DNA of 27,404 bases from a virus: positions 1-27,404 of the IMG/VR virus record IMGVR_UViG_3300027708_000251; one strand, written 5' to 3'. Position numbers and translations under genes: made by a program. The stretch's first letter is position 1. The number at the start of each line of letters is the position of its first letter. Of this stretch, positions 168 through 14,778 are shown piece after piece. The notes beneath the pieces were generated by a model. That model saw only the letters and a program-made list of their open reading frames with translations, had not been told where the DNA came from and did not search any database.

Positions 168-1280
168 ATGGCTCGTCGTGCATCACTGATTGCTAAGAAA
201 GTTAAGAAGCCTCGTACAACACGGAGTGAGTCTTACTTCATCAATCGTAAGTACATGGGCGACGAGCCAGAGTTTCTCGGGGCGATGACAGAAGGCGAAA
301 TGGCCATCGCTTACAATTGGTACAATGCCATGGCTGACAAGTCAGAGATCAAAGAATATACAGAAACTTGGCTCAAGAATCAAAATCGCCTTGTAGAACT
401 GAAGAAGTTCAAATATGTACCTGATGAATGGGTCAATCATACCTGTGGTGCGATCGCTCGTATGATTAGTAAGGGATATGATGTTCCTGTTCACTCTAAG
501 AAATTCTTGGAAGAAACATTTGCATATACTCTTACAAAGGCCAAGGTTCAAGCTGAATCAAACATACCAAAAGTTTCTGTACAAGATCGCATGCGTGACC
601 GTCAGAATGACATCATTGGTGATATCGAAGAACTGATTGATGCTGGAGAAACGTTCTCTCTATATGATTGGCTCAAAGCCAAGGAGATTCCTGCTGCATA
701 TTGCCCATCCATAGTTGCTCATTATTCTCCAGTGCTTGATGAACTTCTTGAAACTTTGGAAGGTAAGTGTCCTCAGCTCAAAGAAGCCTACAGTCATTTT
801 ACCAAGAAACAACTTCGCGATCGTATCGAATTCTATAATAAGTTAATCGAAGATGCTGAACGCTACGGTAATGTTACAAAGAAAACACGTGCTCCTAGAA
901 AGCCTCGGGCTGTCTCTATAGAGAAGAAGCTCAAGAACCTTAAGTATCAGAAGGAAGATAATACCTTTAAGATCGCCTCTGTTAACCCAGAGAAACTTAT
1001 TGCTTGTCAGGAGCTTTGGACTTTCAATACAAAGAACAAGGTATTGACTGTATTCCGAGCAATTGATCGTGGTGGACTTCAGGTAAAGGGTACTAGTATT
1101 ATCAACTATGATGAGGCTACTTCTATCAGTAAACGTACTGGGCGTAAACCAGAAGAGTATGTTAAGAAGGTTCAGGAAGCAGGTAAGATCACACTACGCA
1201 AGTTGATGGACGAACTTAAGGGTGATGCTCCCTTTGCTCATCGTATCAATGAAAATACTATCCTACTTAAAATAACTTGA
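168..1280 (+). CDS. T4-like phage protein of unknown function, 370 aa
   Basis: I chose ATG 168 because AGGAG (156-160) lies just upstream. The frame stays open back to 48, but those extra 40 codons overlap the preceding gene and have no ribosome-binding site. The protein starts very basic (MARRASLIAKKVKKPR), has a central helical, charged region, and a second basic stretch (KKTRAPRKPRA) near residues 235-250. The C-terminal third contains NPEKLIACQELWTFNTKNKVLTVF and ends INENTILLKIT, a block I believe recurs in T4-like marine phages, though no function is known to me. The basic segments suggest nucleic-acid contact, which is inference only. No signal peptide or membrane segment is seen. It lies in the replication-side gene block, followed by the tmRNA. 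Confidence 0.75.
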   Translation: MARRASLIAKKVKKPRTTRSESYFINRKYMGDEPEFLGAMTEGEMAIAYNWYNAMADKSEIKEYTETWLKNQNRLVELKKFKYVPDEWVNHTCGAIARMISKGYDVPVHSKKFLEETFAYTLTKAKVQAESNIPKVSVQDRMRDRQNDIIGDIEELIDAGETFSLYDWLKAKEIPAAYCPSIVAHYSPVLDELLETLEGKCPQLKEAYSHFTKKQLRDRIEFYNKLIEDAERYGNVTKKTRAPRKPRAVSIEKKLKNLKYQKEDNTFKIASVNPEKLIACQELWTFNTKNKVLTVFRAIDRGGLQVKGTSIINYDEATSISKRTGRKPEEYVKKVQEAGKITLRKLMDELKGDAPFAHRINENTILLKIT

Positions 1281-1298
1281 CTTTAAAAAGTAAGTAGG

Positions 1299-1310
1299 GT
1301 ATACTAAATA
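1299..1310 (+). promoter_or_regulatory. Promoter element GTATACTAAATA upstream of the tmRNA
   Basis: GTATACTAAATA occurs here and, identically, at 3111-3122 before gp32. The octamer ACTAAATA (1303-1310) resembles the T4 late promoter TATAAATA recognised by gp55-type sigma, and the CTAAATA form used in some T4-like phages. If it is a -10-like element, transcription would start near 1316-1320, at the inferred 5' end of the tmRNA acceptor piece. No convincing -35 hexamer was noted. Confidence 0.55.
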
Positions 1311-1380
1311 TATTGCTTGGTTGTTGAGGCGTTCGGAATAGACGATCCAGACTCGGGGGCAGTACCCGACGCCTCCACCA

Positions 1381-1481
1381 TGGATATACAGAGCGACGCA
1401 AGATACCTTAGTGGTTGTCGGCGTAACATGCGGTCTTGGTAGTGTTATGTACTGTAGGCATACAGGCTGTATATCTTTGAT
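1381..1481 (+). other. Intervening segment of the permuted tmRNA precursor
   Basis: This segment separates the CCA end of the acceptor half from the 5' GGGGGCG of the coding half and should be removed from the precursor. GATATACAG (1383-1391) pairs perfectly with CTGTATATC (1467-1475), placing the two mature ends side by side for end-processing. The remaining loop of about 75 bases holds no clear gene. Confidence 0.8.
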
Positions 1482-1544
1482 GGGGGCGAAATAGGCTCGA
1501 TGGGTTGTAGTAAAGTTACGAAGAGACTAAGTAAACTCGTAAAT

Positions 1545-1586
1545 GCAAACGATAACAATGCATCTCGTTTGGCTCTAGCAGCCTAA
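1545..1586 (+). other. tmRNA tag-peptide reading frame
   Basis: Resume codon GCA 1545-1547, then codons giving ANDNNASRLALAA and TAA at 1584-1586. The ANDNN start and LALAA end match the usual alphaproteobacterial tag form. The hydrophobic C-terminus is what ClpXP-type proteases recognise in known tags. Confidence 0.93.
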
Positions 1587-1595
1587 CATGAGTCC

Positions 1596-1630
1596 GGTGG
1601 GAACTTGGAAACAGAATCCCACCACCTTTT
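1596..1630 (+). terminator. Terminal hairpin of the tmRNA coding piece, possibly also a terminator
   Basis: GGTGGGA (1596-1602) pairs with TCCCACC (1617-1623) around a 14-base loop, followed by ACC and TTTT (1627-1630). It probably closes the mature tmRNA. The short T run could allow partial termination, but the tRNA starts at 1634, so read-through is likely. Confidence 0.45.
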
Positions 1631-4100: not shown

Positions 4101-4125
4101 AAAGGGAGCTTCGGCTCCCTTTTTT
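4101..4125 (+). terminator. Rho-independent terminator with UUCG loop, shared by converging units
   Basis: AAAGGGAGC (4101-4109), loop TTCG (4110-4113) and GCTCCCTTT (4114-4122) form a perfect 9-bp hairpin that runs into T residues to 4125. It ends the gp32 transcript. Read leftwards, the hairpin has loop CGAA and a broken T run (TTTCCCTT), so it may also weakly end the minus-strand unit, whose last stop codon is 4124-4126. Confidence 0.9.
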
Positions 4126-6061
4126 ATATGTATATCATTTTTCCATCAAAATCCATATACGCATGTTTCAGTCCTGCTCTGAAATTGCCAATCCATTCAG
4201 GCGTAGCTCTTGTGTCTGTTTCTCTTTGTTGAGGCGGAGCTTCAACATTTTGTTGAGTAGGACTTGGTTGAGCAGCTGGCTGTGGAGCTGGAGTTTCTTT
4301 TTGGGTTTCTCTTGTAACAGCAGCCTGATCAATGCCTCTTGTTCTTGATCTTGATTGGTCTAGGTATGGATTATTTGGTTGCATTGAAGCTGTTGAAGAC
4401 CCTTGTAATCCTCCTAAAAGATTTTCAATTGCTGGAATTAATATACCAGCAAGGCCACCAATACCAGCTCCTTGTCTACCACCTATCATACCGCCCAGTG
4501 CAGCATAAGGATTCATCATCCCCATTCTAGGATCTTGTTGTGGGGTATATCCTCTTTGTTGTGGCTGTTCTGGTTCTTCTCTGGCAGCACTCATTCCTCT
4601 ACTAGGACCTGGACCTGGACCAGGTGTTTCTCCTCCAGGAGCTCCACCAGTAGCTTCTCTGAGCCATCCTGCAGCATTTTTACCTGCCCCACCAGCACCC
4701 CATATAGCCTGACTTCCGAACCCGACGTGCATTCTGGCACCATCACTATCCATATATCCTTCACCTGCACCAATACCAGTAGCTCCTGCGGCTGATGCAG
4801 CCATAACGAACTTTTTGAATATAGGCAAATCTTCGGAATTCTTTGGTGTTAGTTTTTTTTCTCCGGAGTAGATATCAAGATCAGCTGCCATACCTTTATC
4901 GTGTCTGGTTGAACCTGTTCTTTGGCCACCTTCTGTTTGTGCTGGCTGACCGCCAGATTTAACCTTTACATCAACTCCTGCTTCTCTTGCTGCCTTTTCA
5001 AGAACAGCTAGAAGTTCTGGGCTGATTGGCAGTTTTCTTATGCCAGCTTCTTTCATTTGATCTTGTGAAACTTTTCCACCATCAGTTTTTATTGGAGTTT
5101 CAGTTTGCTGATTTTGCATTTCGCCACCTTGTTTTGTGGCGTCAGCTGATACACCACGTGTAGGCGAAGATACAGCTGTATTATTTTTAGAATTTTTTCT
5201 TTCTAATTCTCTCATCCATAAATCTTGATATTCTTTCATACTATATTTGTTGTTCTTTTGTTCTTTATCATTCAAATAGCCCTTTGGACCACCATACCAT
5301 TCTCTTGGCACCCAGCTTACATCGCCATTATGTCTTTTAAGAATATCTGATATATATTTGTCTGCAACAGCATCCTGAATTGCAGGAGGAGCGTCTTTTG
5401 CGCGATTGTATTCTGTGCCAATACTAAATTGTTTAGTTAATCCTTTCCAGGTTGTATCAATAAATTGATACGCCCCAGAAGCAGTATTTGGTGGTTTTTG
5501 CTCTGCTTTATAATTGTTTGTAGATTCTCTTTGTTTTATAACTTCTAAAATTGTTTTATTTTCTACATTAGCCAAAGGTGTTTCATTGTTTGATGGAGAT
5601 ACTGGTTTTGCATCATCTCCTTCTGATTTTTGACCCATAATAAGGGCTATGCCAGCTGCTGATACTCCCATGCCAGTAAGAAGATTACTTGCTAGACTTG
5701 CGCCCTTTCCACCATTACTACTTTTAACAGCACTTTCTTTAATTAACATTTTTAATGTTTTGAGTATATCGTTTTGGACAGAAATCGATTGCTGTAAGAG
5801 ACTATTTGCTTTATCTATTTTCTTGGTATTTTGTTGAGTCTGTTCTTCAATGTTTTCAACATTTGCTGTGAGTTGTTTTATCTGTCCTTTTTGAGAAGAA
5901 AAAAGAGAACCTAAATTTTTATTGATTATTGATACATTTCCATTATTATCATTAGCAGCTTTTTTGAATGATCCTTTCTCTGCTGGCGCATTGACAGGCT
6001 GTGTTTTATCTGCTTGTTTATTCTTCTTAAATAATGAAAATGGATTAAATTTTATTGGCAT
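4124..6061 (-). CDS. Virion-associated bifunctional peptidoglycan hydrolase, 645 aa, possible tape measure
   Basis: Domains in order: charged N-terminus; coiled coil about 49-110; one hydrophobic Gly/Ala segment 126-142; lysozyme-like transglycosylase domain about 168-290 with QRES (E179 the likely catalytic acid), SGAYQF (195-200) and EWYGG; M15-type metallopeptidase domain about 341-470 with GSTRHDKGMAADLD (H387, D394) and GEGYMDSDGARMHVGFG (E434, H445) as zinc and catalytic residues; Pro/Gly-rich linker; glycine-rich hydrophobic stretch; C-terminal DFDGKMIYI. It should cut both glycan strands and peptide stems when the tail penetrates the wall. AAAGG lies before ATG 6061, two bases after the gp26-extension stop. 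Being directly downstream of a chaperone-like frameshift gene, with coiled coil and membrane segment, it could be or replace the tape measure; that is inference. Confidence 0.82.
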   Translation of the reverse strand: MPIKFNPFSLFKKNKQADKTQPVNAPAEKGSFKKAANDNNGNVSIINKNLGSLFSSQKGQIKQLTANVENIEEQTQQNTKKIDKANSLLQQSISVQNDILKTLKMLIKESAVKSSNGGKGASLASNLLTGMGVSAAGIALIMGQKSEGDDAKPVSPSNNETPLANVENKTILEVIKQRESTNNYKAEQKPPNTASGAYQFIDTTWKGLTKQFSIGTEYNRAKDAPPAIQDAVADKYISDILKRHNGDVSWVPREWYGGPKGYLNDKEQKNNKYSMKEYQDLWMRELERKNSKNNTAVSSPTRGVSADATKQGGEMQNQQTETPIKTDGGKVSQDQMKEAGIRKLPISPELLAVLEKAAREAGVDVKVKSGGQPAQTEGGQRTGSTRHDKGMAADLDIYSGEKKLTPKNSEDLPIFKKFVMAASAAGATGIGAGEGYMDSDGARMHVGFGSQAIWGAGGAGKNAAGWLREATGGAPGGETPGPGPGPSRGMSAAREEPEQPQQRGYTPQQDPRMGMMNPYAALGGMIGGRQGAGIGGLAGILIPAIENLLGGLQGSSTASMQPNNPYLDQSRSRTRGIDQAAVTRETQKETPAPQPAAQPSPTQQNVEAPPQQRETDTRATPEWIGNFRAGLKHAYMDFDGKMIYI

Positions 6062-6063
6062 CT

Positions 6064-6249
6064 TTAACCTTTATTCTTTTGTTTTTCTTCTTCTAGTTTT
6101 CTTAAATGAACTATCAAAAATTCAACATATATGTCCCTCTCAAAAGGGATTAGGTTTTCAATTTCAGTAATCGAATATTTGTGATGCTGAACCATAGAAA
6201 AAATAGTAGAAAAGTAATTCTCTAAAGAGTTATGATTCAGCGCCAGGAA
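6064..6249 (-). CDS. -1 frame extension of gp26 (61 residues), probably reached by frameshifting
   Basis: This frame is open from a TGA just upstream of an 8-T run to TAA 6066-6064. It overlaps the end of gp26 and encodes FLALNHNSLENYFSTIFSMV followed by QHHKYSITEIENLIPFERDI and a Lys/Glu-rich end. The only internal ATG (6195-6193, giving 43 aa) has no ribosome-binding site, so entry by a -1 frameshift at TTTTTTT (6255-6249) is favoured. The fusion would be 295 aa. The block YSITEIENLIPFERDIYV looks conserved and resembles the small acidic helical extension found in tail-assembly chaperone pairs. An independently translated 43-aa protein is the alternative. Confidence 0.55.
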   Translation of the reverse strand, partial: FLALNHNSLENYFSTIFSMVQHHKYSITEIENLIPFERDIYVEFLIVHLRKLEEEKQKNKG

Positions 6250-6950
6250 AAAAAATCATTTAACGAGCTCAAAATTATTTCTCTATCGTTTCCTAAAGAA
6301 TTCTTGTACTTAATTTTATGCTCTATTTTGGGGACACTCAAAAGAAATTTCTGAATATCTTCGAATACCTTCAAATTCATATTCTCTAGGAACTCACTCA
6401 TTTCTTCTTTACTGTGGTTTGAAGGTTCGAATATCTCATCGTCATCATAAATTTTATCGATACATCTAAGAATCAATTCAAACATGTAATTATCTGTTAA
6501 TGATAGAAATTCTTTGTCTTCATATAGTAAAGCTGATGGATAATTCATCACAATTCCTGATTTTTCGCCAATTTTTATGTTATTACTGACTCTTTCAGGA
6601 ATTTTTACTTCAATTTCATTCAAATCGATGTCAAAATCGTAAACTTTTTCGTCTTCATAGTCTTTATATGAAACTTTTACGATATTATTTACAGAAAACG
6701 CTCTTAATTTTAGAAAAATGTATTCGAGATCGAAAAGTGCAATTTTATCAAGATTCAATCCCTTATCTACACAACAATTATTAACAATTTGTTTAATTGC
6801 TGACAAAATATCAGAATCATTTTCACTTTCTTTGGCCATAAGAAGTAGCTTTTCTTCTTTTACCAAAAATGGTCTAAATTTTATATTTTTATTTAACGAA
6901 GGCACCTTAATATTGTACATTGGTTGATCGATTTTAGGCAAGCCAGACAT
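6237..6950 (-). CDS. 26: gp26-like baseplate hub / tail assembly protein (T4_baseplate family), 237 aa
   Basis: The start is ATG 6950 after GGAG in ATTATGGAGATATGTT. The N-terminal IKFRPFLVKEEKLLLMAKES, then AIKQIVNNC and LDKIALFDLEYIFLKLRA, matches the pattern of the T4_baseplate family (PF12322), which includes gp26. T4 gp26 is a hub component needed for hub assembly; relatives in other myoviruses look like tail-assembly chaperones. Length is near T4 gp26 (208 aa). Near the 3' end the coding strand has T TTT TTT in the reading frame (6255-6249), followed by SWR and TGA, and a -1 frame continues open for 61 codons. The gene lies between the tube-fold protein and the hydrolase, as expected for a chaperone placed next to a tape-measure-like gene. 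Confidence 0.8.
   Translation of the reverse strand: MSGLPKIDQPMYNIKVPSLNKNIKFRPFLVKEEKLLLMAKESENDSDILSAIKQIVNNCCVDKGLNLDKIALFDLEYIFLKLRAFSVNNIVKVSYKDYEDEKVYDFDIDLNEIEVKIPERVSNNIKIGEKSGIVMNYPSALLYEDKEFLSLTDNYMFELILRCIDKIYDDDEIFEPSNHSKEEMSEFLENMNLKVFEDIQKFLLSVPKIEHKIKYKNSLGNDREIILSSLNDFFSWR
6249..6255 (-). other. Putative -1 ribosomal frameshift site T TTT TTT
   Basis: The minus strand has eight consecutive T residues (6255-6248). In the gp26 frame they read GAT TTT TTT TCC, i.e. a heptamer X XXY YYZ with both tRNAs able to re-pair after a -1 slip. The -1 frame is open for 61 codons beyond it, while the zero frame stops after three more codons. Confidence 0.55.
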
Positions 6951-10398: not shown

Positions 10399-11610
10399 AT
10401 GGAAGCTGGCGAAATAAGAATTTCAAATTTACGAATTGGTGACATTGATTTAAGTAATCAAAATCAAATTAATTATAGTGTGATTGAAATATACGAAGAC
10501 ATTTTAAGTCCAACAGGGCCATTTGCTGAAATCAACGTTGTTGACAGTAATGATGTATTGGGCAAATCTAATTTAAATGGTTCTTACGATAAAGATGTCC
10601 AAATATCTTTTTCGCTTGATGGTACAGGTTCGGCTAGTTTCAAATTTAAAATGATGGAAAATAAAGATTTGAAAGATGGATCTTCTGATAAAATTGGGTC
10701 AGGGCACAATAAAAAATATACAATTAGATGTTGTTCTGTAGAAATGTTAAACGCTCAAGGTAATTATGTTCAGAAAAGTTATGAACAACAAACAAGTAAA
10801 ATAGTAGAAGATATTGTAAAGAATAATTTTAAAAGCGATAAGAGTATCGATTTAGAAAGTACATATGGATCAAGAAGACTAGTTTTTTCAAATAAGCATC
10901 CTCTAGAAGTAATAAGAATACTTAATTCTGAACATGTTTCCGATGAAAACAAATCTTCTGCTTTTGTTCTGTTTCAAAGATCTCAAAAATATGTATTTTC
11001 TACATATGAAAAACTATTCAAACAAGGCGCAGTAGTTACTTTAAAACAATCAGCGACTTTAGCTTTTGCTAATGGTGGTGATAAAGCAAATTCTATTTTA
11101 TGGATCGATGTGCCGAATTCGTTCTTTACCCCAACTAGATCTCTGTCTAAATCTCAGCAGAACTCGTATGACCCTACAACTGGAACTGCTGATCAAGTAG
11201 AACAAAAAAAGAAATCTTGGAGTTTACCTGGAAACCAAGCGTATGACGATACTTCTTATTCTAAAGCTGTTCCAGTCCATACTATGAACGATGCTATAAA
11301 CAATAAATCATCTACAAAACTAGCAGATGCAAGAAAAAATAGAGTAGATTTCTTATCGCATTTATCACAAACATATGGAACATTAGAGGTTTATGGAAAC
11401 CCAGATATAACACTTGGTTCTATTGTGAATTTGGATATTCCTAATAAATCTGATGGTAATACCTCTGCTGGTGAAAAACAATTTAATGGTAAAGCATTAG
11501 TTGTTTCAATTAGACATAAGATAAAACCAATTGGTGAAACACCTAGATATACTATGATTCTTGGTGTTGTAACTGGTGGTTATAAAGAAGGTGGTGGTGG
11601 TAATGGCTAA
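10399..11610 (+). CDS. 27: gp27-like baseplate central hub protein, 403 aa
   Basis: gp27 forms the trimeric hub ring that holds the gp5 spike. The length is close to T4 gp27 (391 aa). Visible features are the N-terminal IRISNLRIGDIDL, a beta-rich first domain (YEDILSPTGPFAEINVVDSN), a second domain with SRRLVFSNKHPLEVIRILNS and VLFQRSQKYVFSTYEKLF, and the C-terminal LSHLSQTYGTLEVYGNPDIT followed by LGSIVNLDIP and KALVVSIRHKIK, typical of gp27/gpD/VgrG hub proteins that end in a tube-like beta domain. The glycine-rich end (YKEGGGGNG) is coded by a GGTGGTGG stretch that also lies before the next start. It overlaps the OB-fold gene by 8 bases. Confidence 0.82.
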   Translation: MEAGEIRISNLRIGDIDLSNQNQINYSVIEIYEDILSPTGPFAEINVVDSNDVLGKSNLNGSYDKDVQISFSLDGTGSASFKFKMMENKDLKDGSSDKIGSGHNKKYTIRCCSVEMLNAQGNYVQKSYEQQTSKIVEDIVKNNFKSDKSIDLESTYGSRRLVFSNKHPLEVIRILNSEHVSDENKSSAFVLFQRSQKYVFSTYEKLFKQGAVVTLKQSATLAFANGGDKANSILWIDVPNSFFTPTRSLSKSQQNSYDPTTGTADQVEQKKKSWSLPGNQAYDDTSYSKAVPVHTMNDAINNKSSTKLADARKNRVDFLSHLSQTYGTLEVYGNPDITLGSIVNLDIPNKSDGNTSAGEKQFNGKALVVSIRHKIKPIGETPRYTMILGVVTGGYKEGGGGNG

Positions 11611-11914
11611 AATGTACTTTGCAGAAGTCAGAGATATTATGGACCCATTAAGATCTGGGCGTGTTAGAGTCAGAAAATATGGTTATGAGAATGATGAACA
11701 GAATGTAAAAGACGATCATCTTCCATGGGCTTTGCCTTTGCAACCTATTACATCTGCAGCTACAGGTAAGGTTGGAATTATTCCAACAGGAATGATAGTT
11801 GGTTCAAGAGTTATTATTGTATACATGGATAACGATACAGCTGAGCAGTATCCTATTGTTTTAGGATCCTTCGCTCGTGGTGCTTTATTAGCTAATGAAA
11901 CAGTTGGGGTATAG
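11603..11914 (+). CDS. 5: Stand-alone gp5 N-terminal OB-fold protein, 103 aa
   Basis: The protein begins MAKMYFAEVRDIMDPLRSGR followed by VRVRKYGY, and continues LPWALPLQPITSA, GIIPTGMIVGSRVIIVYMDN and EQYPIVLGSF. This is the gp5/VgrG OB-fold domain, the collar by which the spike sits on gp27. T4 gp5 fuses this domain to a lysozyme and a beta-helix; here the frame ends after the OB fold. ATG 11603 follows a GGTGGTGG tract and overlaps the gp27 end; ATG 11612 is the other candidate. The next gene starts 11 bases after TAG. The stop is not a simple frameshift artefact visible here, because the next gene begins with its own start and unrelated sequence. Confidence 0.78.
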   Translation: MAKMYFAEVRDIMDPLRSGRVRVRKYGYENDEQNVKDDHLPWALPLQPITSAATGKVGIIPTGMIVGSRVIIVYMDNDTAEQYPIVLGSFARGALLANETVGV

Positions 11915-11924
11915 AAAGAATAAA

Positions 11925-13472
11925 ATGGCAGTTTCAACTACAGATCTCGATCATGCTACAGACAAATTGGATAAAGCTCAAATAGGAGTAGATGTGCTTG
12001 GCTCTACTCCTAGAAATATATTAATGTTTAGACATCCGAGAGTTGAAGGAACGCCTCTTGGGCAGTCAACCCCACCATTTGCTACTTCGACTGAAGCAAA
12101 CACAAGTAAAAACGATCCAAATGCAAAAAATGTATTAGAAGAAGTAAAAAAAAGAAATGTTACTGTAGCAGACGAACCAACAACTGCTTCAGCCGCTCCT
12201 GGGAAAGATCTTGCACAAATAATATCACAAGTTGATCCAGCTGGTTCAGCTCAAGTATTTCCAAACATGATCAGACAATTTGCTATGATTAAATCAGTAA
12301 TGAATGTTGCTGGTGGTGGAGGAGGTAGATCTGCTGCGCCTACATCAAGTCAGACTATTGTTTTATCTGATGCGTTTTCAGAAGCTCTTTGTATACTTTG
12401 TAACACAACAAGTTTTTCAGAGGTTATGGTAGCGCTTGATCATCTACTGATCAATAATGGCATCAGCAGAATTGATGCTGGTTATCAAACTATTGTAAGA
12501 AATGGTATAACTAATTTAATACAAAAGGCTCTTATTTTTGGCGAAAATAATATACCTGTAAAACCAACACCAGTTGTTGTATATGGCACAAAAATACCTC
12601 CTACAAATTTAATTTTACCTGATATATACTCAGTTTTAGATTTAGCAGTTAAACAATATTACACATATAATTCTGATCCATATCCTGGTTATATCACATA
12701 CATTAATAATGATCAAACATATAGCTACGTAAAAAGAAGAGAAATAGATTATCCTTATGAAAATGTAGATGATGAATGTTTATCTATAGCTGAAAAAGGT
12801 ATAGCGTATGATCTTTATGCTTATGTATATACTAAAACACCAATAAGTGCAGATAATATGAATAGTATATTGATAAAACATAAAGTAAGTCATGAAGAAA
12901 ATGCTATGCATTATACTATTGGTAAAAACAGTAATACCAATTTAATGTCAAATTTGAGCGCTATACTTGGAATAGCTGGTATTATAATTAATTTGGCGCA
13001 AAGTTCATTTTTAGGTAAAACTATATTGGGTAGCGAAGTCAGTCAAGCATTAAATGCATTTTCTAAAAATTTATCCATGGCAAAAACAATGGCAGGAATG
13101 GCATCATCAGCATTAAAATCGCCATCATCAGGAGCTGGTATAGCAGGTATTGCTGCTATTGCAGGAATTCTTTCTAACGCTGGTATTCCTATGCCAAATA
13201 TTGCATCAGCTGTTGGTGGAAATGCAGTTCTTTCTGAGATATTAGCTGCACGTGGAACAATAGCTGGAATTGCATATGCAATTGCTTCTGTTACTAGTTT
13301 AAATAACCAATTAAATAATTCCGGAAGTTCTGTTTCGCAATTAAATTCAACTGCAATAGGCCAAACTACGCCATCATTAGCATCAATACTAAATGCAATG
13401 AAACTTGCAGGGTTTACAGTTGCAGCTATTAATGCTGCTGAAGCAGTTCTTAGAGATATAGGGTTAGTATAA
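11925..13472 (+). CDS. Hub-associated protein of unknown function between the two spike parts, 515 aa
   Basis: ATG 11925 is preferred over upstream in-frame starts, which overlap the OB-fold gene. The first 130 residues are polar and low in order, and include DVLGSTPRNILMFRHPRVEG. The middle (about 145-320) looks globular, with IVLSDAFSEALCILCNTTSF and a Tyr-rich stretch YPGYITYINNDQTYSYVKRR. The last 180 residues are Ala/Gly/Ser-rich and hydrophobic (GIAGIAAIAGILSNAGIPMP, ILAARGTIAGIAYAIASVTS), resembling long amphipathic or membrane-active helices. No family is recognised. Cotranscribed between the gp5 OB fold and the spike, with a TAATG overlap to the latter, it should belong to the hub or central channel. 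It could carry a membrane-active role at infection; that is inference. Confidence 0.7.
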   Translation: MAVSTTDLDHATDKLDKAQIGVDVLGSTPRNILMFRHPRVEGTPLGQSTPPFATSTEANTSKNDPNAKNVLEEVKKRNVTVADEPTTASAAPGKDLAQIISQVDPAGSAQVFPNMIRQFAMIKSVMNVAGGGGGRSAAPTSSQTIVLSDAFSEALCILCNTTSFSEVMVALDHLLINNGISRIDAGYQTIVRNGITNLIQKALIFGENNIPVKPTPVVVYGTKIPPTNLILPDIYSVLDLAVKQYYTYNSDPYPGYITYINNDQTYSYVKRREIDYPYENVDDECLSIAEKGIAYDLYAYVYTKTPISADNMNSILIKHKVSHEENAMHYTIGKNSNTNLMSNLSAILGIAGIIINLAQSSFLGKTILGSEVSQALNAFSKNLSMAKTMAGMASSALKSPSSGAGIAGIAAIAGILSNAGIPMPNIASAVGGNAVLSEILAARGTIAGIAYAIASVTSLNNQLNNSGSSVSQLNSTAIGQTTPSLASILNAMKLAGFTVAAINAAEAVLRDIGLV

Positions 13473-14311
13473 TGGGACAACCACCTAACAAAAAATTTCC
13501 AGATTCTAAAGCTATAACGGATCCTGGAGATTATCCGTATATTTTTGGCTACAGAGATACTAATGGCTGTGGTGTTATATCTGGTGTAGATCCTAACAAA
13601 CCAAATGAATCATATAGATGTGAAATCAATCATGACGGTAGTTTCGAAACCAGAGAAATATCTGATGAATTTGATGGTATGGTTACTTCTCATGTGCATC
13701 ATGAGAGATTAAATGCTGGAAGTACCAGTAAAAATAATGATGGTAATGTAGATATTAGTGGCCAAGCTACTTTAAACAGTAATTATAAAGGCGATGTTGG
13801 GCATGCTTCTGGAGGAACAGAATATAAAGCTGCTATTAAAACAATTAGTGGATCGGCTGAATCATCAACTATAGTTGCTCCGGGTGGTAAAAGCTACAAA
13901 CTATACGATGATGATGTTATTGAATATATGTCCAAAGACAGAGCCATAAGTGTAGATGGTAATGAAGTAATAGCAATTGGTAAGTCATCAATTACAATGG
14001 TACAGGGTGATTTTGGTATTCACGCCCAAGGTTCTAACGGATTAGATTTACAGAGTGAATCCAAAGCCCAGTTGAGAGCTACACAGAAAATTAACATTCA
14101 GAGCGATACTGAAATTCTATTGAAAGTTTCTGGTGCCACCGTAGATGTTACACCTGCTACAATTACAGCAAAAATTGGAGCTGCTACAGTAAGCATTGCA
14201 GCTGGTACAGTTTCAGTAAGGCTCGGGGGGTCTTCTTTTGTTATAACATCTGGGTCTATAACAGGATCGGCCAGTTTAATTAAAATGAATAGTCTTACAC
14301 TTCCTAGATAA
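13472..14311 (+). CDS. Central spike protein, beta-helix part of a divided gp5, 279 aa
   Basis: The N-terminal half contains YPYIFGYRDTNGCGVISGVD and YRCEINHDGSFETREISDEF followed by MVTSHVHHERLN. The C-terminal half is a run of short beta segments (EVIAIGKSSITMVQGDFGIH, KINIQSDTEILLKVSGATVD, TITAKIGAATVSIAAGTVSV) as expected for the triple-stranded beta-helix needle of gp5/VgrG spikes. It lacks both the OB fold and any lysozyme domain, which are supplied by the 103-aa OB-fold protein and perhaps by the 645-aa hydrolase. It starts by TAATG overlap with the preceding gene. His-x-His-His (about residue 75) might bind metal, but this is a guess. The call rests on repeat pattern and position. Confidence 0.68.
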   Translation: MGQPPNKKFPDSKAITDPGDYPYIFGYRDTNGCGVISGVDPNKPNESYRCEINHDGSFETREISDEFDGMVTSHVHHERLNAGSTSKNNDGNVDISGQATLNSNYKGDVGHASGGTEYKAAIKTISGSAESSTIVAPGGKSYKLYDDDVIEYMSKDRAISVDGNEVIAIGKSSITMVQGDFGIHAQGSNGLDLQSESKAQLRATQKINIQSDTEILLKVSGATVDVTPATITAKIGAATVSIAAGTVSVRLGGSSFVITSGSITGSASLIKMNSLTLPR

Positions 14312-14314
14312 ATA
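14307..14314 (+). promoter_or_regulatory. Possible late promoter GATAAATA before gp25
   Basis: GATAAATA differs from the T4 late consensus TATAAATA at one base. It straddles the spike stop codon and lies 29 bases before the gp25 start, in one of the few gaps (32 bases) in this otherwise packed operon. An internal late promoter here would separate hub from wedge genes. Confidence 0.4.
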
Positions 14315-14343
14315 CTAAGTTATAATAACAATTTAAGGTAAAT

Positions 14344-14778
14344 ATGGCTACAAATTTAACAAGAGCGCAGTCGATAACTGGATCAAATACTAAGAAAGTC
14401 GAATTCTTTTCTGACTTCTTAAACAGTTTTGCGAAAACTCCGTATGGCAATCAGCTTGGCCGTGTTACCAATGAGCAATCAGTCAATCAGTCTTTAAAGA
14501 ATTTGATAATGACGAATATAGGGGAAAGAATGTTTCAACCATTTGTTGGTTGTAATGTCTATGACTATTTGTTCGAACCTAATGTACAAGATTATATTAC
14601 ATCTCTTGAATCGTATATTGAAGATACTATAAAAATAAGCGAACCAAGAGTCAATGCTCAAGAAATAACAGTTTTACAGGGTTATGATGAACAAACTATC
14701 CAAATAAAAATTGTTTACAATCTTATAAATAATCCAGCACCTATAACTCTTGACTTTCTCCTAAAAAGAGTACGATAA
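14344..14778 (+). CDS. 25: gp25-like baseplate wedge protein (GPW/gp25 family), 144 aa
   Basis: gp25 is the small sheath-initiating wedge protein related to phage P2 gpW. The family pattern is plain: FFSDFLNSFAKTPYGNQLGR, NEQSVNQSLKNLIMTNIGER, MFQPFVGCNVYDYLFEP and the C-terminal INNPAPITLDFLLKRVR. The ERMFQP box contains the conserved Glu-Arg. T4 gp25 is 132 aa. AAGG lies 7 bases before ATG 14344. The gp6 start follows the TAA with no gap, in agreement with the 25-6-7 wedge gene order seen in many T4-like phages. Confidence 0.92.
   Translation: MATNLTRAQSITGSNTKKVEFFSDFLNSFAKTPYGNQLGRVTNEQSVNQSLKNLIMTNIGERMFQPFVGCNVYDYLFEPNVQDYITSLESYIEDTIKISEPRVNAQEITVLQGYDEQTIQIKIVYNLINNPAPITLDFLLKRVR

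Follow-up and report, generated by a model that had tools for sequence, protein, structure and literature searches.

The window analysed here carries, as judged from its sequence, a variant of the T4-type spike in which the lysozyme slot is held by a new domain family and in which the spike gene is split in most of the members found and fused in some. The window is the whole of IMG/VR virus record IMGVR_UViG_3300027708_000251 (27,404 bases), from an uncultured T4-like phage, and contains a T4-type tail module with the genes for W (a candidate wall hydrolase), gp26, tail tube protein, gp2 and gp4 on the minus strand. On the plus strand, gp48, gp53 and gp27 are followed by three ORFs, and these in turn by gp25, gp6 and then more wedge and fibre genes (Table 1). 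The three ORFs encode an OB-fold protein (OB), a middle protein (X) and a beta-helix needle, confirming the claim of an earlier note that gp5 is split here at the gene level into separate OB and needle genes. The C-terminal end of gp27 overlaps the OB gene. The same note had described all parts of the spike as tightly coupled; the X and needle genes overlap in TAATG, and the gap between OB and X is 10 bases rather than the 11 claimed. An alternative in-frame ATG at 11895 would extend X to 525 aa.

Table 1. Coordinates of the spike genes and of the tail genes discussed with them (positions in the window)
Feature	Position	Strand	Basis
gp27-type hub protein, 403 aa	10399..11610	+	phrog_350 tail protein 2.6e-36
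OB: gp5 N-terminal OB-fold domain, separate 103-aa protein	11603..11914	+	PF06714 4.3e-9
X: 515-aa middle protein	11925..13472	+	ORF; no family match
X conserved motif QYY-x4-DPYPGYI ... R271, residues 240-271	12642..12737	+	aligned X family
Needle: beta-helix, gp5C-like, 279 aa, own gene	13472..14311	+	profile A7 matches VgrG/gp5/central spike chains
gp25 wedge protein	14344..14778	+	PF04965 4e-16
gp26 baseplate hub protein	6237..6950	-	PF12322 3.2e-55; phrog_150 1.3e-57
W: 645 aa, candidate wall hydrolase	4124..6061	-	transglycosylase-like module + M15-like region

In the window, needle and gp25 have no PAAR gene between them (14312-14343); one is present in the loci of 54 of the 78 distinct X sequences described below, some of the other loci ending too early. 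A recurrent ORF of 64-69 aa, with a start like MxHKFVILKNGxLETYxKYEDI, follows the needle in loci L002/L054, L070, L071, L072, L108 and L110, and precedes the PAAR gene where a PAAR gene is shown. Elsewhere, window 1273-1626 encodes a permuted, alphaproteobacterial-type two-piece tmRNA (RF01849, 114.6 bits) that is followed by a tRNA-Arg; of 18 related records, 9 have such a tmRNA scoring above the cut-off. Phages have already been described to carry two-piece tmRNA, one of them infecting a host outside the Alphaproteobacteria (PMC9004378), so its presence hints only weakly at the host.

T4 gp5, which sits on gp27, is described as a three-part chain whose middle domain is a wall-degrading lysozyme and which is cleaved between Ser351 and Ala352 (PMC3004832). 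The spike genes of the window resemble it in their homologous OB, the same kind of needle, their place after gp27 and the three-part layout. By contrast, T4 has a lysozyme in the middle and makes one precursor chain, whereas the window has X in the middle and uses three genes, with the border between the X and needle genes falling at the T4 cut between gp5* and gp5C (PMC3004832). Like a T4-type gp5 spike, the genes lie beside gp27 and begin with a Gp5_OB-family domain: OB scores above the cut-off of that family, matches phrog_430 at 8.1e-24, and in a PDB search a profile of 8 OB proteins reaches chains of T4 gp5 (4.5e-10). The needle alone gave weak matches to phrog_694 (0.0015) and DUF2345 (0.0025), and one to the VgrG tip model NF041249 at 1.9e-7, yet far under the cut-off of the model; as a single sequence it found no spike in the PDB by phmmer and no match among phage records by tblastn. 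A profile of 11 needles (A7) matched VgrG 6sjl (2.7e-6) and the 'central spike' 8kea (4.8e-4), the only PDB entries at or below 0.001, with T4 gp5 chains at 0.03-0.07. The profile had 21 PDB matches with E no higher than 1; one is unnamed, and the name or known family of the other 20 marks them as spike proteins (VgrG, gp5, phiKZ164, All3320). The 279-aa protein thus bears out its earlier reading as a spike and, at the level of sequence profiles, is a C-terminal beta-helix needle. Comparisons of the needle profile with single phage gp5 C-termini and cyanophage ends (hhalign, probability 8-46) were uninformative, and a count of octads was dropped as needle evidence when 108 of 1000 shuffles proved equally good. 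The C-terminal part of the needle is longer in the window than in L002 and L003.

That X is a real gene follows from a dN of 0.159 against a dS of 1.00 between the window copy and that of L002 (76% identical). The protein consists of a variable N-terminal linker (residues ~1-80), a conserved core (~80-400) and a variable Ala/Gly C-terminal tail. The window X has no convincing relative in Pfam, PHROG, NCBIfam or the PDB; a known non-hub family, which would have spoken against the reading of the earlier note, was not matched in the first three. Among 27 family members scanned, PHROG returned 25 families, each in one to three members (best E 0.0021), and Pfam 8 stray families (best 0.028), in both cases with no shared theme. 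Neither X nor any of these 27 members matched a lysozyme domain, and the place between OB and needle, which is that of the T4 lysozyme, is taken by X as had been suggested. Profiles of X found PDB entries only at E 0.2 or worse, PADLOC gave no match for two proteins, tblastn of 50,697 phage records with five X proteins as queries returned nothing, and a single pattern scan across genomes of bacteria and archaea revealed no relative.

Relatives of X were recovered from IMG/VR by searches with X, with OB and with alignments, of which the last contributed the best 80 of 122 matches. At least 170 loci carry X, several of them from one contig, and they represent at least 78 distinct core sequences. 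In a first census OB was always a separate ORF (67 of 68 OB loci, the remaining one running off its record), with lengths of ~94-159 aa measured from the start of the match. The last search used a query built from more distant X proteins, and ORFs in which OB and X are fused appeared after it. The split form accounts for 59 of these 78 distinct sequences and fusion to OB for 13; the other 6 are cut on the OB side. The fused forms that the earlier note had asked to be sought in related phages therefore amount to 13 of the 72 distinct sequences with the OB side covered and the split form seen in the window to 59, and the real fused share may be higher because the searches were seeded with split forms. 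The fused ORFs span 523-582 codons from stop to stop and come from at least 19 loci. None of the 78 sequences has X and needle in one ORF. The needle lies downstream of X in 71 of the 78, the X ORF of the other seven stopping at, or at most 75 bases from, the end of the locus; gp27 likewise lies upstream in 71, and in the remaining seven the X ORF starts within 376 bases of the locus start. Since 59 distinct X sequences show the split, it is no assembly slip.

Fused and split X aligned over 394 columns with a probability of 100 and an E-value of 1.2e-72 (hhalign), using a fused profile of 11 rows of which L129 and L135 stand near the split clade. Single sequences of the fused clade also matched one split X by tblastn (L180 2e-33, L188 3e-22, L195 6e-20), indicating that both forms are one family. 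In a 74-row tree, three changes are needed for the fused label, at least two of them forced by well-supported branches, and none of 500 shuffles needed as few; the fused pair L129/L135 was placed within an otherwise split clade. Given the meeting long branches of this tree, its finer history and the direction of change are unsure. A programmed frameshift joining OB and X was rejected, since the frame relation from OB to X varies between lineages (39, 14 and 6 of the 59 split sequences), against one conserved recoding site. Judged against 2000 shuffles, the OB tail of L044 resembles the N-terminus of X in L029 (equalled by 5 shuffles) and L045 (equalled by 4), but only weakly that in L038 (67), L076 (86) and L103 (239); a wider GxDNP comparison over 21 pairs was unconvincing, as between 1.5% and 97% of 1000 shuffles did equally well. 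These similarities are no more than a hint that the OB/X border may slide along the linker; the case is carried by the fused ORFs.

X lies in the spike gene cassette, can share one chain with OB and contains no detectable lysozyme domain. Because it is fused to OB in some relatives, X is very likely a part of the spike proper. The same covalent tie disfavours an earlier suggestion that X is a cargo delivered freely with the spike. It also hardly fits a chaperone that would assist needle or hub assembly and be absent from the finished virion, a role to which the tight coupling of the X and needle genes and the predominance of split forms could point and which we consider to have a very slim chance of being correct.

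Conservation within the family bears on whether X could be an enzyme. The core elements PTTAS, VDP, QYYxxxxDPYPGYI and GKNSS are all present in the window X, and the aromatic DPYPGYIxW motif sits in the conserved, mostly helical core. Positions 245, 256 and 259 hold an aromatic residue in 74 of 74 sequences, and near-invariant polar sites are D104 (71/72), Q/N244 (70/74), D/E251 (72/74) and R/K271 (73/74). Sites conserved at 75% or more are mainly G, P, Y, A, L and V, plus D104, Q244, D251, R271 and N313, with no Glu, His, Cys or Lys among them, and look mostly structural. We considered that X might be a new domain degrading peptidoglycan or surface glycan, or binding glycan, that took over the task of the lysozyme in the same slot. 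This would suit its position and the near-invariant D104 and D/E251 next to an aromatic cluster (245, 246, 253, 256, 259). However, X has no convincing match to a hydrolase family, Glu, His and Cys fall short of conservation at 75%, and W, or else a protein near gp26, already contains hydrolase modules, so that we regard an enzymatic X as quite unlikely.

In an AlphaFold model of X the core is predominantly helical and has short strands, and the mean pLDDT is only 59; in blocks of ten residues, values reach 76-90 for residues 141-330 and 77-82 for the last helix (491-510) and are low for most of the rest. With this model Foldseek found nothing among PDB folds at E <= 0.001, and the best VIA score was a Z of 5.9 across 61 residues. 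In BFVD it matched two proteins of uncultured Caudovirales phages, A0A6J5NTL0 (uncharacterised, 469 aa; E 6.8e-22) and A0A6J5M3J2 (543 aa; E 5.4e-7), with low TM-scores of 0.34-0.49. The second is named 'Protein Gp5, N-terminal OB-fold domain containing protein', and this structure search provides an independent line for fused and split X being the same. The earlier note had also proposed a channel or membrane-active component, and one version of this idea would have X leave the hub after contraction and form a channel. The window X has hydrophobic stretches at 340-358 and 403-421 besides its Ala/Gly-rich tail, and the gp5 of cyanophages also has, by eye, a long hydrophobic-looking middle region. 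By contrast, a 19-residue hydropathy window of at least 1.6 occurs in only 9 of 27 X proteins, the tail is the variable part of the family (Gly-rich in L029/L038/L076, nearly absent in L069/L070/L108), and X is covalently tied to OB in the fused forms. A membrane role was therefore rejected as the main one and appears highly improbable. The X of L074 (6224-8800, 858 aa) contains DUF4214 insertions (PF13946 1.5e-27), and the middle part of the spike therefore tolerates insertions.

Wall-degrading modules are encoded in another gene, near gp26. In the window copy of W, which neighbours gp26, the transglycosylase-like module PF06737 scored 4.5e-5, just below the cut-off, and the M15-like region was recognised by eye. 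The window protein found W in 11 of 16 records, and a W profile found it in 9 of 16, three of which lacked a match in the earlier search. Of seven W copies scanned, those of L118 (SLT_3 1.5e-13), L116 (M15_4 1.3e-16) and L120 (Amidase_2 7.5e-10) each carry a hydrolase above the cut-off, whereas PF06737 stays below it in every copy where it shows up; the copy in L114, the nearest relative, has no Pfam hydrolase at E 0.01, and NCBIfam matches of W were weak and unhelpful. W relatives show exchangeable wall-hydrolase modules. The seven records missed by the W profile include all six of the fused clade, so that W was matched solely in split-lineage records. Two fused-clade records examined have a gp26 homologue (50-53% identical to that of the window), a small ORF and then a protein of 937 or 998 aa, with CHAP (8.8e-7) or M15_4 (7.7e-13) among these proteins near gp26. 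Both the failure to match W in the fused clade and the sub-cut-off score of PF06737 speak against W as the enzyme. W or its counterpart would reach the periplasm.

Cyanophage gp5 (S-ShM2, S-SSM5, S-CAM1, Syn10, S-RIM2, ACG-2014d) likewise begins with OB, continues with a long middle region and, by eye, finishes in a helix-like part; unlike in the window, a single chain holds all three in five of these six phages (by eye). The middle region of S-ShM2 gp5, the one cyanophage scanned, has no lysozyme match. X compared with the middle region of cyanophage gp5 (phrog_430) gave hhalign probabilities of 0.1-0.5 with thin profiles; because no homology is detectable here, the assignment of X to the lysozyme slot is based on position. 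Homology of X to this region or to the N-terminus of the phiM12 M15 protein, raised by a lookalike SHE(E/Q)N motif, was rejected after profile comparison gave nothing. In S-CAM1, a separate 369-aa ORF after gp5 (L018:7018-8127) looks needle-like (NF041249 0.0043, far under the cut-off; no PDB match) and is perhaps another split needle. Caulobacter phage Cr30 and Sinorhizobium phage phiM12, the top gp6 matches among cultured phages, share the order gp27-gp5 ... gp25, and their gp27-type genes are among the tblastn homologues of the window gp27. Cr30 also has a separate PAAR-motif protein. In contrast to the window, Cr30 gp5 carries Phage_lysozyme2 (5.5e-29) behind OB and an M15-like end (by eye), while phiM12 gp5, with weak matches to OB and the gp5 trimerisation domain, has an annotated muramidase domain and an M15 peptidase protein next to it; tblastn found X in neither phage. 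The gp5 proteins of Acidovorax phage ACP17 (306 aa) and Stenotrophomonas phage DLP6 (305 aa) combine OB with a needle-like end, and by eye no middle domain is seen. Sphingomonas phage PAU was discarded as a second split case, as the genes after its OB protein are unlike X or needle (by eye). Anabaena myophage A-1(L), described as having hydrolase domains on a hub protein rather than the spike, offers a parallel for a wall enzyme placed outside the spike (PMC10966104), and pelagimyophage gp5 is reported as strongly divergent with several clusters (PMC7029224). Among the literature matches listed, no title or abstract opening reports a gp5 that is split and has a middle protein of this kind.

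Taken together, the placing of X within a gp5-type spike, as its middle domain and in the T4 lysozyme slot, is well supported, and the role of X is most likely that of a structural collar or adaptor, neither enzyme nor membrane channel. We suggest that, as in T4, three copies of the OB domain attach to the gp27 trimer and that X, tethered to them via its N-terminal linker, packs as a collar around the base of the trimeric needle, where T4 has its lysozyme. The separate needle gene would be the gene-level counterpart of the T4 cleavage of gp5 and may allow the needle to detach after piercing, while cell-wall cutting would fall to W, another tail protein. OB plus X would then probably be the equivalent of gp5* (OB plus lysozyme) and the 279-aa protein that of gp5C, with X structural and wall cutting left to W. 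The near invariance of D104 and D/E251 counts against a purely structural X and leaves room for catalysis. A bolder proposal, which we hold to be unlikely, is that X represents a new domain family unrelated to lysozyme, filling the lysozyme slot in the T4-type spikes of many uncultured aquatic phages, acting on or binding the host envelope via its acidic-aromatic motif, and that the split lets OB, X and needle swap separately.

These results also affect annotation. Many phage records are named in the 'tail lysozyme' style under an OB match, and in the fused OB-X proteins of L129, L181, L188 and L195 it is only the OB part that matches PHROG families called 'baseplate hub subunit and tail lysozyme', so that annotating them by this name would be mistaken as to the lysozyme. 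With a new middle domain that has natural fused and split forms, the role of the lysozyme slot and the maturation cut of gp5 become directly testable, and the arrangement suggests that wall degradation in such tails is encoded by a different gene.
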